Part shown: positions 27,507 through 33,474 of the stretch, one piece after another
Layout: each line of letters starts with the position of its first letter
How positions within the stretch are numbered: the stretch's first letter is position 1
From: a virus
IMG/VR virus record: IMGVR_UViG_3300008448_000227
Span: 1 to 39,824 of that record
Reading direction: 5' to 3' (one strand)
Length of the DNA: 39,824 nt
Notes under the pieces: model-generated
The model's database searches: none
What the model was told of the DNA's origin: nothing
The model's input: only the letters and a program-made list of their open reading frames with translations
Made by a program: the position numbers and the translations under genes

Positions 27507-27516
27507 ATATTTATAT
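27507..27516 (+). promoter_or_regulatory. Candidate late promoter motif
   Basis: ATATTTATAT followed by AAAACGG lies 2 bases after the fibre-tip gene's stop and 14 bases before ATG 27531. Confidence 0.5.
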
Positions 27517-27530
27517 AAAACGGAAACAGA

Positions 27531-29612
27531 ATGAACAAAATAACAACGTTATTTCCTGGTGGATTCAAACCATTAACTGGAGCACATTTAGCACTTGCAC
27601 AACGTTATGCTACACATCCAGATGTCGATCGCGTAATACTTTTAATAGGTCCAAAGGAACGAGATGGAATAACTCGAGAAAAAACAATTGAAATATTCAA
27701 TTTAATCAATCGCAATCCTAAAATTGAAATACAACCAACAGCATTCAACTCTCCTATCATGGCCGCATATGAATACTTATTTGCATTGCCGGAAAATGAA
27801 ACAGGTCGTTATGCCATGGCTGCATCTACAAAAGGAGATGATTATGTACGAACAAAAGACTTTGTTCCAAATGTTGATAAATATAAAATGGTCGGCGACA
27901 AATCTGGAAGAAAAATACCTGCAGGAGTTGATGCTACAGAATTAAATTTGGATGTAGATCCGATCGCATATAAAAATGGAGAACCTATATCGGCATCAAC
28001 TATTAGAGCTGCAATTGCAAATCGAGATTATGAAACGTTCCGAGCTTCATATCCTGCGCAGAATGATGCTGAAGTAAAAAATATTTGGCAAATATTAACC
28101 GGAGTACAAGAAACTGTATTTTCTAAAGAATGGTGGCGTAAACAACTACAAGAAGATGCAGATGCTGTTTATGAATCAATGATGTTTACAAAAGAAAAGA
28201 AACGCCATGCAGATAAAATAAGCAAGTTAAAAAATTTCCTAGAAAAAAATAGAGGTCGAGAATTTGTATATGATTTTGGAGATTTTGAAAAAACAGTGAT
28301 GGGTGCTTCTTTATTAGAAGGAGTCGAAGCAATAAGCATGATTACTGAAGGCGGCGCAGCAGGACATATGGCTCATCCATATGATGATCATTCACTGACG
28401 TTTGGTGATATGAAAGAAATTGTTGCACGTGCATTAGAAGGACGATTGGATATCGAATCTGCAGTAACGGAAAAAACTGATGGACAAAATATTCAAGTAA
28501 CATGGAAGAACGGACAGCCTGGCTTTGCACGAAATAAAGGAACTGTTATTAATCCAATGACTCCAGATCAATTGATTGCAGATTTCGAAAGAAAATATCA
28601 AGAAAGCATTGCAAAGAATGGAGCAGAAGCTTCAGAAGGATATAAACGAGTTGTAGAAGCATATAGAGCTTGTGCAGAAGATTTAACTAGTGCATTAACA
28701 AAATTACCACCAAATGTATTGCAACAAACATTTAAAGATGGTCGAGTATTTGCAAACATGGAAATAATTTTTCCTGCAACTAAAAATGTAATATCATATG
28801 ATAAAGCTCATCTTCAATTTCACAATTTGGTTGAATATGATGAAGCGGGTCAAGTAGTTGAAACTGATTTAGCCGGAGGTGGTATGCTACAAAAAATCAT
28901 ACAAGATGCAAATGCACATTTACAAAATACATTTTCATTTATTCCTCCGCAACGCATAAAGATTGGAAGAATAGCAGATTTTGAAGATCAACAAGCTGCA
29001 TTTTTCAATGAAATAGATCAATTACGTAATCGTTACGGTTTACAAGATACAAACCTAGTTTCGGATTATCATAGAGCTTGGTGGAGTGATGTAGTACGTG
29101 CAAAAGCAAAAGAATTAGGCTATGAAATTCCAGATGCAATTTTATCAGCACTAGTAAATCGTTGGGCGTTTGCAGACAAATCAGCAAATATTACTGCACT
29201 CAAAAAACAAATTGACAATCCAGAATTCGTTAATTGGGTAACTGAATTTGATAAAAAAGACTTTAAAACATATTACAAACAAAACATGGAACCGTTTGAA
29301 AGTATATTTTTACGGCTAGGTGCAGTTGTATTACGTAATGCAGAAAACTTCTTAGCAGCAAATCCATCAAAATCAGTACAAGAGTTAAAACAAGATTTAG
29401 CTGAATTGATCAAAGAATTACAAACAACTAATGATATCGATACTATTAAGAAATTAGAACACGAACTACGCCGTATACAAAAGCTAGGTGGGTTTGAAGC
29501 AATTGTTCCATCAGAAGGAGTAGTATTCGTATACGGCGGACATACCTATAAATTAACCGGGGCATTTGCACCCGTTAATCAGATACTAGGAGTATTGAAA
29601 TACGCACGATGA
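27531..29612 (+). CDS. Bifunctional-looking nucleotidylyltransferase / ligase-type adenylation protein
   Basis: The 693-residue product joins two nucleotidyl-transfer domains. Residues 1 to about 200 are an HxGH-superfamily nucleotidylyltransferase: FPGGFKPLTGAH (Thr16-Gly-Ala-His19) and ISASTIR (153-159), as in NMN or phosphopantetheine adenylyltransferases. Residues about 265-480 and 655-693 look like an ATP- or NAD-dependent ligase adenylation domain: EKTDGQNI with candidate adenylated Lys315 (KxDG, motif I), ANMEIIF with Glu411 (motif III), SEGVVF at 661-666 (motif IV) and YKLTGAF with Lys674 (motif V). A helical insertion (about 480-655) separates motifs III and IV. The substrate is not clear: NAD synthesis or repair for the first domain and RNA or DNA end joining for the second are guesses from family. 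A late-motif in front argues for late expression. Confidence 0.75.
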   Translation: MNKITTLFPGGFKPLTGAHLALAQRYATHPDVDRVILLIGPKERDGITREKTIEIFNLINRNPKIEIQPTAFNSPIMAAYEYLFALPENETGRYAMAASTKGDDYVRTKDFVPNVDKYKMVGDKSGRKIPAGVDATELNLDVDPIAYKNGEPISASTIRAAIANRDYETFRASYPAQNDAEVKNIWQILTGVQETVFSKEWWRKQLQEDADAVYESMMFTKEKKRHADKISKLKNFLEKNRGREFVYDFGDFEKTVMGASLLEGVEAISMITEGGAAGHMAHPYDDHSLTFGDMKEIVARALEGRLDIESAVTEKTDGQNIQVTWKNGQPGFARNKGTVINPMTPDQLIADFERKYQESIAKNGAEASEGYKRVVEAYRACAEDLTSALTKLPPNVLQQTFKDGRVFANMEIIFPATKNVISYDKAHLQFHNLVEYDEAGQVVETDLAGGGMLQKIIQDANAHLQNTFSFIPPQRIKIGRIADFEDQQAAFFNEIDQLRNRYGLQDTNLVSDYHRAWWSDVVRAKAKELGYEIPDAILSALVNRWAFADKSANITALKKQIDNPEFVNWVTEFDKKDFKTYYKQNMEPFESIFLRLGAVVLRNAENFLAANPSKSVQELKQDLAELIKELQTTNDIDTIKKLEHELRRIQKLGGFEAIVPSEGVVFVYGGHTYKLTGAFAPVNQILGVLKYAR

Positions 29613-29613
29613 T

Positions 29614-29622
29614 ATATTTATA
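29614..29622 (+). promoter_or_regulatory. Candidate late promoter motif
   Basis: ATATTTATA followed by ATAAAATTGG lies directly after the stop of the nucleotidyltransferase fusion and 18 bases before ATG 29641. Confidence 0.5.
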
Positions 29623-30533: not shown

Positions 30534-31184
30534 ATGGGAAAAACAAACAAGTTACAAAACATCAAGGCTATCCAGCAAATGTTGGAAGGCAATCACAAGT
30601 TCCAAACCAAGAAAACTATAGGATTTTCAGATGCTAAAGATGCAGCAAGAAAATCAGAACGTCACGAAATTGGCGATACGTGGGAAGAAACTGATCACAC
30701 CGGCAACGTTTGGGTCATTGAACAAAAAGATGGATATCGAGTTCGCAAAACAAAAAATGCAGAAGTATTTCAAGAAATACGAGATTCATTACGTTCATTT
30801 CCAAATTGTCGCAAAGACGTATGTACATGTTTAGCACCAAAGCCATTAGATGAAACGATGCGTAAAGCAAATGGTATGTGTTTTGATTGTACAATTGAAA
30901 TGGAACATGATTTAAAAAAACAAGGCAAATTTGAAGAATATGAAAAGAAACGTATTCATGAAAATGCATTAGCTTGGTTACGTAATGCAGAACAAGATGT
31001 TGAAATGTTAAAACAAACATACACGCAAGCTTCTGAATTTATTCTTAATAGCGAAGGCGAAACAGAAACTTATGCTGCAAGAATGTCCCCGGAAGAATTT
31101 AAAGAAAAAGTAGAAGCAGAATTTGCTAAATTTAAAGAAGATTTTTTAAAACGATTAGATGGAGAAGATGATGAAAACAATTAA
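30534..31184 (+). CDS. Unknown protein with Cys cluster (possible zinc site)
   Basis: The 216-residue product has a basic N-terminal region, a short beta segment (NVWVIEQKDGYRVRKT, residues 58-73), and then a Cys cluster: Cys92-x4-Cys97-x-Cys99 and Cys116-x2-Cys119 (within MCFDC). The spacing is compatible with a zinc-ribbon-like structural site. The C-terminal 95 residues are charged helix (EEYEKKRIHENALAWL to the acidic end). It ends inside the next gene. The position just ahead of the packaging genes matches that of small terminase genes in T4, but no gp16 similarity is visible, so I leave it as unknown. Confidence 0.6.
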   Translation: MGKTNKLQNIKAIQQMLEGNHKFQTKKTIGFSDAKDAARKSERHEIGDTWEETDHTGNVWVIEQKDGYRVRKTKNAEVFQEIRDSLRSFPNCRKDVCTCLAPKPLDETMRKANGMCFDCTIEMEHDLKKQGKFEEYEKKRIHENALAWLRNAEQDVEMLKQTYTQASEFILNSEGETETYAARMSPEEFKEKVEAEFAKFKEDFLKRLDGEDDENN

Positions 31185-31896: not shown

Positions 31897-33474
31897 ATGT
31901 CACAACCTAATATAAAACAGATCATTCAACAACAGTACACGATGTGTGCTAAAGATCCTGTTTTCTTTATGCGACAATATTGTTATATACAACATCCTAA
32001 AAAAGGAAAGATTAAATTTAATTTATTTCCATTTCAGGAAGATTCACTAACAGAATTACGAGATAATCGATACAGCGTTATATTGAAATCTCGCCAGTTA
32101 GGAATATCAACTCTATCTGCAGGTTTTGCTCTTTGGAGCATGTTGTTCAAAGAAGATTTTAATGTACTTGTTATTGCAACAACTCAAGAAGTAGCTAAAA
32201 ACTTAGTTACAAAAGTACGCGTAATGCATGACAATTTACCAAGTTGGTTAAAAGGTACAATTGAAGCTGATAATAAACTTTCTCTTAAATTTAAGAATGG
32301 TTCACAAATAAAGGCAGTATCATCAGCAACAACCGGTGCACGTTCAGAAGCATTATCACTATTAATCATAGATGAGGCTGCGTTTATACGTAACATTGAA
32401 GAAATATGGATAGCATCGCAAGCAACCCTATCAACGGGTGGTGGTGCAATAGTTTTATCAACGCCAAATGGTGTGGGTAATTGGTTTCATCAAACATGGG
32501 CAGATGCTGAAGCAGCAATTAATGGATTCCATACAATTAAATTGCATTGGACAGTTCATCCGGAACGAGACCAAGCTTGGCGCGATCAACAAACACAATT
32601 ATTGGGTGAACGGGGTGCTGCACAAGAATGTGATTGTGACTTTATTTCATCAGGCCATACTGTTATCGATGGTGCTATATTAATGGATTATGAATTAAAA
32701 TGTAGCGATCCAATTGAAAAACGAGGTTTTGATAATGGGTATTGGATTTGGGAATATCCGGACTATCAAAAAGATTATTTAGTAGTAGCAGACGTTGCAC
32801 GAGGCGATGGCGGTGACTGGTCAACATTTCATGTTATAGATGTACAAGACATACGACAAGTTGCAGAATACAAAGGAAAACTTCCTCCTAAAGATTTTGG
32901 TAATATGCTCGTAACAGTTGCAACTGAATGGAATAATGCACTGCTAGCAATAGAAAATGCAAATATAGGTTGGGCTGCAATTCAACCGGCACTAGATAGA
33001 AATTACGAAAATCTATTTTATACATATAAAGATGATGGTTATGTTGATGTAGATGTACAACTTAAAAAAGGTTATGATATGAAAGATAAGAGCCAAATGG
33101 TTCCTGGAGTATCAACAACCACACGTACACGTCCATTAATGATATCAGCTCTTGAAATGTATATGCGAGAACATACTCCAGTAATTAGATCAAAGCGACT
33201 TATACAAGAACTTTTTGTATTTGTTTGGTTAAATGGAAAAGCACAATCGCAACAAGGTTATAACGATGACTTAGTAATGGCATTCTGTATTGGTTTGTGG
33301 TTACGAGATACAACTCTTAAATTACGTCAACAAGGAATTGAACTTAACAAACGTGCATTGTCTCAATTTCAAAAAACTGATTCAGTTATATACACAGGTA
33401 AATCTACAAATCAAAATGATTCATGGAAATGGAATAACGGCCAGAACGATGAAAATTTAACCTGGCTTCTGTAA
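31897..33474 (+). CDS. 17: Terminase large subunit gp17 (packaging ATPase-nuclease)
   Basis: The 525-residue product is a T4 gp17-like packaging motor. The ATPase part shows FNLFPFQEDSL, a Walker A-like loop KSRQLGIST (residues 64-72), Walker B LLIIDEA (155-161, Asp159 and Glu160) and the coupling motif LSTPNG (187-192). The nuclease part starts at VVADVARGDG (Asp299) with later acidic residues including AIENAN and YNDDLVMAF, the RNase H-fold sites. The A-loop has Ile where T4 has Lys (SRQLGKT in T4); Lys64 at its start may take over, as in deviant Walker A loops of other terminases. It starts one base after the spanin-like gene. No small terminase is obvious upstream. Confidence 0.92.
   Translation: MSQPNIKQIIQQQYTMCAKDPVFFMRQYCYIQHPKKGKIKFNLFPFQEDSLTELRDNRYSVILKSRQLGISTLSAGFALWSMLFKEDFNVLVIATTQEVAKNLVTKVRVMHDNLPSWLKGTIEADNKLSLKFKNGSQIKAVSSATTGARSEALSLLIIDEAAFIRNIEEIWIASQATLSTGGGAIVLSTPNGVGNWFHQTWADAEAAINGFHTIKLHWTVHPERDQAWRDQQTQLLGERGAAQECDCDFISSGHTVIDGAILMDYELKCSDPIEKRGFDNGYWIWEYPDYQKDYLVVADVARGDGGDWSTFHVIDVQDIRQVAEYKGKLPPKDFGNMLVTVATEWNNALLAIENANIGWAAIQPALDRNYENLFYTYKDDGYVDVDVQLKKGYDMKDKSQMVPGVSTTTRTRPLMISALEMYMREHTPVIRSKRLIQELFVFVWLNGKAQSQQGYNDDLVMAFCIGLWLRDTTLKLRQQGIELNKRALSQFQKTDSVIYTGKSTNQNDSWKWNNGQNDENLTWLL

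Follow-up and report, generated by a model that had tools for sequence, protein, structure and literature searches.

RNA ligase 1 of phage T4 (Rnl1, gp63; PF09511) is a phage enzyme for tRNA repair. Gp63 is recorded both as RNA ligase 1 and as the catalyst of tail-fibre attachment (Snopek 1977 as cited in PMC3400036). Known RNA repair systems are built from kinase, phosphatase, tRNA nucleotidyltransferase and ligase (PMC7824862, PMC3400036). In fungal Trl1 and Pnkp-type enzymes, the RNA-ligase fold shares a polypeptide with domains that heal RNA ends. PPAT (CoaD), NaMNAT (NadD) and NadM/NadR have the HIGH-superfamily fold, with (T/H)xGH-like and ISxxxR motifs. Phage polyvalent proteins are multidomain mosaics among late genes (PMC5512222). 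Proteins A0A6J5MBE6 and A0A6J5MCV5 of uncultured Caudovirales phages and WWT39297.1 of Microcystis phage Mel-JY01 are members of the family described here. They are annotated only as cytidylyltransferase-like, and the ligase domain is not named.

The window is the whole stretch of 39,824 nt analysed. Its source is a T4-like virus of bacteria. The open reading frame singled out in the earlier note is real, and all of the motifs listed there are present in the ligase order. The gene and its parts are as follows.

27531..29612, + strand: whole gene, nucleotidylyltransferase plus RNA-ligase-fold protein, 693 aa, ATG start
27531..28115, + strand: predicted HIGH-superfamily nucleotidylyltransferase domain, aa 1-195, AF2 model with matching fold
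28116..28346, + strand: linker, aa 196-272, modelled with low confidence; relatives have domains inserted here
28347..29609, + strand: predicted RNA-ligase-fold domain, aa 273-693

The protein shares with T4 Rnl1 the adenylation-domain fold and the motif order, and Rnl1 is its best profile match. It differs from Rnl1 in the K-x-T form of motif V, two helical insertions, the lack of a C-terminal domain, a gene without PF09511 match, a fused nucleotidylyltransferase and a late locus beside the terminase large subunit gene (TerL). Relatives of the window protein resemble Trl1 and Pnkp-type enzymes in carrying kinase or HAD phosphatase with the ligase fold, but the domain order is different; Trl1 and Pnkp have neither a HIGH nucleotidylyltransferase nor a tRNA nucleotidyltransferase, and the window protein has no healing domain. 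It differs from PPAT, NaMNAT and NadM/NadR in having TGAH instead of TxGH, no Nudix or NadR-type kinase partner, and a fused ligase. Unlike polyvalent proteins, it has a stable nucleotidylyltransferase-ligase pair as its core; the likeness to them lies in the multidomain mosaics of the family and the late locus.

The N-terminal domain is almost certainly of the HIGH-superfamily nucleotidylyltransferase fold, as judged from the model. The pLDDT of the AF2 model is 80-94 over most of residues 1-190, and the domain has the Rossmann-type nucleotidylyltransferase fold of the PF01467 superfamily. The model matches NaMNAT and PPAT (Foldseek E 2.9e-4 to 7.7e-4; NaMNAT 2.9e-4), with VIA Z 13.8 and rmsd 3.3 over 157 residues against PPAT. 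Among PDB sequences, a profile of seven relatives matches PPAT 3nd5 (E 1.1e-4). Of the earlier assignment to the NMNAT/PPAT kind, the fold stands; as to the kind, the closest solved structures are PPAT and NaMNAT alike. Against PF01467 (CTP_transf_like) the window protein scores 13.6 bits, at a cut-off of 21, which is exceeded by long relatives (L148, 42.7 bits; L173, 42.0; L120, 38.0). Two motifs are recognised.

27576..27587, + strand: TGAH, (H/T)xGH-like active-site motif, aa 16-19, aligned with TNGH of PPAT 3nd5
27987..28007, + strand: ISASTIR, second nucleotidylyltransferase motif, aa 153-159

Conservation was scored over 48 diverse relatives aligned with the window protein, to which they are 30-88% identical. 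H19 (last His of TGAH), S154 and R159 never vary. TGAH is a Gly-to-Ala change relative to (H/T)xGH; it is present in 29 relatives, G-x-H-H in 12 and H-x-G-H in seven. The form follows clade, with TGAH in the clade of the window and G-x-H-H or H-x-G-H in marine relatives. The linker has pLDDT < 60 in large part. The pTM of the whole-protein model is 0.57, and the relative placement of the two domains is uncertain.

The C-terminal domain very probably has a polynucleotide-ligase-type adenylation fold, mostly RNA-ligase-like. Structure models cover window and IMG/VR sequences. Modelled alone by AF2, the domain has pLDDT 89.9 and pTM 0.86, and shows the adenylation-domain fold of covalent nucleotidyltransferase RNA ligases. 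The top 22 Foldseek rows are all polynucleotide ligases, mostly RNA ligases, with T4 Rnl1 first (E 5.3e-4). VIA Z is 9.0 against Naegleria RNA ligase (186 aligned, rmsd 4.0), 8.5 against Trl1, 8.5 against Rnl1, 8.2 against Rnl2 and 8.1 against the editing ligase; against DNA ligases it is lower, 5-6.6. Of 55 diverse members, 23 match PF09414 (RNA_ligase) at an E value of 1 or below; none of the remaining families, out of 24,736, matches the C-terminal domains of more than three. The best PF09414 E value among these members is 0.0046, below the curated cut-off; in whole-record searches three relatives give E 2.6e-4, 8.1e-4 and 9.9e-4. The curated cut-off of PF09414 is not reached by the ligase domain of the window protein or its relatives. 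The C-terminal profile scores 35.2 against three Rnl1 sequences, the maximum of 100 column-shuffled profiles being 29.4. For Rnl2 the score is 24.3, no better than shuffled profiles give, and carries no weight here. With T4 DNA ligase and with a control protein there was no match. PF09511 has no match at the fusion gene in 20 records, and finds true Rnl1 genes elsewhere in two of the same records. No ligase was found by single-sequence Pfam, NCBIfam and PDB searches with the window protein, and a first profile search of PDB sequences gave only chance matches for the C-terminal domain. Identification of the ligase needed fold comparison, larger alignments and the shuffled control. Fold, motifs and the Rnl1 profile comparison together uphold the ligase-type adenylation domain proposed in the earlier note.

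The motifs and insertions of the C-terminal domain are the following.

28470..28484, + strand: ligase motif I EKTDG, aa 314-318, Lys315 predicted AMP-accepting lysine, aligned with KEDG (Lys99) of T4 Rnl1
28527..28541, + strand: motif Ia-like ARNKG, Arg334 invariant
28563..28742, + strand: first helical insertion, aa 345-404, helices in models
28755..28769, + strand: ligase motif III NMEII (Glu411), within ANMEIIF aa 408-414, aligned with ANFEF of T4 Rnl1
28875..29501, + strand: second, large helical insertion between motifs III and IV, aa 449-657, helices in models
29514..29528, + strand: ligase motif IV EGVVF (Glu662), SEGVV aa 661-665, Glu and Gly invariant
29547..29561, + strand: ligase motif V YKLTG, aa 673-677, Lys674 and Thr676 invariant in 48 relatives

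K315, D317, G318, R334, E411, E662, G663, K674 and T676 never vary in the 48 relatives. The motifs are not chance strings, since the active-site residues of both domains are invariant. Motifs I (KxDG), III and IV are conserved and stand in the order of RNA ligases. Judging by fold and motif order, Lys315 should lie in the nucleotide pocket. Motifs III and IV are separated by 251 residues (E411 to E662), mostly helical by prediction (449-461, 484-657). This exceeds the spacing of Rnl-type ligases by roughly 170-180 residues, in agreement with the helical insertion of about 170 residues noticed before. The helical insertion at 345-404, between motifs Ia and III, is additional to that account. 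Motif V is K-x-T, not K-x-K, in 48 of 48 relatives, Thr676 replacing the second lysine, and only about 15 residues and no further domain follow it. Both features would suit a C-terminal covalent nucleotidyltransferase that adenylylates itself or another molecule and seals no ends. Such an enzyme is given a low probability: the kinase, phosphatase and tRNA-nucleotidyltransferase partners of relatives suit sealing, and the large helical insertion could stand in for the missing domain.

The ligase domain is present in > 580 viral contigs among the matches listed (two scans, each with > 580 confirmed relatives). In nearly all complete reading frames it is preceded by the nucleotidylyltransferase; two exceptions were seen, LR756500 (L034) having the ligase domain by itself and Lak phages (L036) the nucleotidylyltransferase by itself. 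The gene adjoining the lone ligase domain (L034:5259-7220) encodes a C-terminal HxGH nucleotidylyltransferase. It was considered as a second fusion on account of ISENLDGS, ligase-like by eye, in its N-terminal part, and was rejected when a profile test did not bear this out. Purifying selection acts on both domains of the fusion family: dN/dS is about 0.09-0.22 for the nucleotidylyltransferase and 0.04-0.16 for the ligase domain, and about 0.4-0.5 for the linker in five of seven comparisons. One relative (L002:1818-3887) is 98% identical to the window in the ligase domain, only 83% in the nucleotidylyltransferase and 51% in the linker, and this inequality suggests recombination within the gene.

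Relatives are absent from the plasmid collection. Six GTDB contigs match, all of them MAG contigs. Contigs L215, L216 and L217 are of this phage family and occur in bacterial and archaeal MAGs; L215 and L217 carry TerL and portal genes and are likely misbinned phage. No host is claimed on this account. Flavobacterium phage immuto was rejected as a relative: its TerL is 54% identical, but the protein annotated there as NadR lacks a ligase domain. By eye this immuto protein (L221:3132-5855) is a 907-aa mosaic of a Pol-beta nucleotidyltransferase, a HIGH nucleotidylyltransferase and a metallopeptidase motif, HEMIHH.

Relatives carry domains that the window protein lacks: kinase, phosphatase and tRNA nucleotidyltransferase. 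In a Pfam census of 38 long relatives, an AAA_33 P-loop kinase occurs in 17, a PolyA_pol head with RNA-binding domain in two (L217, E 1.5e-29 for the head; L192), HD in one and RNase_T in one. The kinase matches the phage polynucleotide kinase family in L148 (E 8.4e-5) and seryl-tRNA kinase in L132 (E 9e-4); relatives' kinase also matches zeta toxin. One relative with 65% identity to the window protein, L087, has a HAD domain between nucleotidylyltransferase and ligase, which matches the phage polynucleotide-kinase family (E 9.4e-12). The linker is a hot spot for inserted domains, with inserts in L017, L019, L028, L042, L084 and L087. In-frame inserts observed there include an HNH-like endonuclease, a zinc ribbon (CxxC...CHECG), an SGNH-like domain and a conserved 130-residue domain (L028, L042, L017, L020, L027, L084). 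A further relative of 1203 aa (L114:1450-5058) carries a retropepsin-like Zn_protease (PF05618, E 4.5e-7) and, by eye, a Pol-beta type nucleotidyltransferase between the two domains.

The kinase, HAD phosphatase and tRNA nucleotidyltransferase fused in relatives support the link to nucleic-acid end repair that had been proposed from the window alone. RNA repair is preferred, because these added domains are parts of known RNA repair systems. The protein is read, at about even chances, as a late-expressed two-enzyme protein in which a ligase for repairing RNA ends, most likely those of tRNA, is joined to a nucleotidylyltransferase. Since many related viruses keep the domain pairing, it probably represents a type of viral RNA-repair protein that has so far gone unrecognised. 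Lys315 of the C-terminal domain would accept AMP from ATP; the AMP would be moved to a 5'-phosphate RNA end, which would then be sealed to a 3'-OH as by T4 Rnl1. The large helical insertion between motifs III and IV may substitute for the C-terminal substrate-recognition domain of other ligases. The N-terminal domain would take ATP together with either a small phosphorylated compound, similar to NMN or phosphopantetheine, or the RNA end. The healing steps of kinase, HAD phosphatase and tRNA nucleotidyltransferase would be performed in this phage by other proteins. It is presumptive that the protein ligates, that RNA is its substrate and what part the first domain plays; packaging in the virion is possible. 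Evidence against the RNA-ligase reading consists of Thr676 in motif V, Pfam scores below cut-off, the absence of healing domains from the window protein and the unvarying late site beside TerL.

The variety of the added domains may also be read in another way. Zinc ribbon, HNH-like, SGNH-like, retropepsin-like, RNase_T, ParB and kinase domains are gathered at one hot spot or at the N-terminus, as might be expected of a polyvalent protein with two unrelated counter-defence activities, made late and packaged for the next host. The nucleotidylyltransferase would restore NAD or another dinucleotide depleted by host defence, the ligase would mend cleaved tRNA, and chemical cooperation would not be required. 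The genes of such proteins are reported to lie close to late virion genes (PMC5512222). A P-loop kinase with a HIGH nucleotidylyltransferase recalls NadR (PMC9503650), and the nucleotidylyltransferase of L148 matches the phage NMN adenylyltransferase family (E 4.7e-4). However, relatives' kinase is AAA_33/zeta-like and N-terminal to the nucleotidylyltransferase, unlike NadR as described, and nucleotidylyltransferase and ligase stay paired far more consistently than the other domains are kept, a hint that the two cooperate. One survey of phage NAD systems states that NadM never occurs in a phage lacking NadV (PMC9503650), whereas NadV is found in only one of 20 records holding the fusion family, most of them fragments; it was not found in the 190-kb Mel-JY01 genome. 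Given the single NadV among 20 records, NAD synthesis by the N-terminal domain is possible but unsupported. The polyvalent reading is kept as a doubtful one. Chemical coupling of the two activities, as imagined in the earlier note, is speculation.

In one further reading, a quite improbable one, both domains share one substrate. The nucleotidylyltransferase would adenylylate an RNA 5'-phosphate or decorate it with a dinucleotide, or reverse such caps with pyrophosphate, and the motif-V-altered ligase would seal or transfer the activated end. NMN, the usual acceptor of such an enzyme, is itself a nucleoside 5'-monophosphate. If true, the protein would represent a previously undescribed split-active-site RNA ligase or machine for RNA capping or decapping.

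The late motif reported upstream of the gene is present, and the placement between fibre genes and TerL is confirmed and conserved among relatives. The elements concerned are listed below.

27508..27515, + strand: TATTTATA, late-promoter-like motif, 23 nt upstream of the start codon
2121, 4521, 7351, 13431, 15480, 17659, 24442, 27508, 29615, 33482 and 35346 of the window: TATTTATA copies before + strand genes
30534..31184, + strand: cysteine-rich conserved neighbour protein, function not assigned, 3' in all 96 close loci and 59 of 84 distant ones where the flank is long enough
31897..33474, + strand: TerL (terminase large subunit), conserved 3' gene, phrog_2 E 5e-43

The 11 copies of TATTTATA before + strand genes of the window lie 21-30 nt 5' of them. 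The pattern is slightly over-represented in the window (17 found, 9.4 expected) and is the reverse complement of the T4 late motif TATAAATA as read on the coding strand. It is a probable late-promoter element of this phage group. The fusion gene probably heads its own late transcript, since TATTTATA stands upstream of it as before the other + strand genes; the next copy, at 29615, is ahead of the following gene. Of 115 loci flanked by 4 kb or more, spanning widely diverged relatives, 114 have TerL downstream of the fusion gene. The fibre gene of the window precedes the fusion in only three of 13 distant loci, so that fibre-gene linkage is weaker than TerL linkage.

A fixed late site beside TerL is unusual for a repair gene, T4 rnlA, rnlB and pseT being located elsewhere. 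A position directly after fibre genes and before TerL would suit a role in morphogenesis like that of T4 gp63, in fibre or head assembly, with the catalytic core a relic or a second job. Rnl1 as the nearest ligase family by profile and the double function of gp63 agree with this, but all tested catalytic residues of both domains are kept under strong purifying selection and the fibre gene is seldom upstream in distant loci; a morphogenetic role is unlikely. The synteny with TerL would equally fit a DNA nick- or end-processing enzyme tied to packaging. That is highly improbable: likeness to RNA ligases in fold and profile is greater than to DNA ligases, and the partner domains are RNA enzymes.

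In the literature searched, coverage of which is incomplete, no description of the ligase domain or the fusion was found, and searches for DUF6267, Mel-JY01 and a published fusion gave nothing relevant. In a widespread phage family that databases label, at most, 'cytidylyltransferase-like', there appears to be an RNA-ligase domain not recognised before, together with a cofactor-type nucleotidylyltransferase. The family could supply new laboratory ligases. If true, the RNA-repair reading would give a new architecture for phage RNA repair, sited in the late packaging region of T4-like phages, and would raise the question why an NAD/CoA-type enzyme travels with an RNA ligase.
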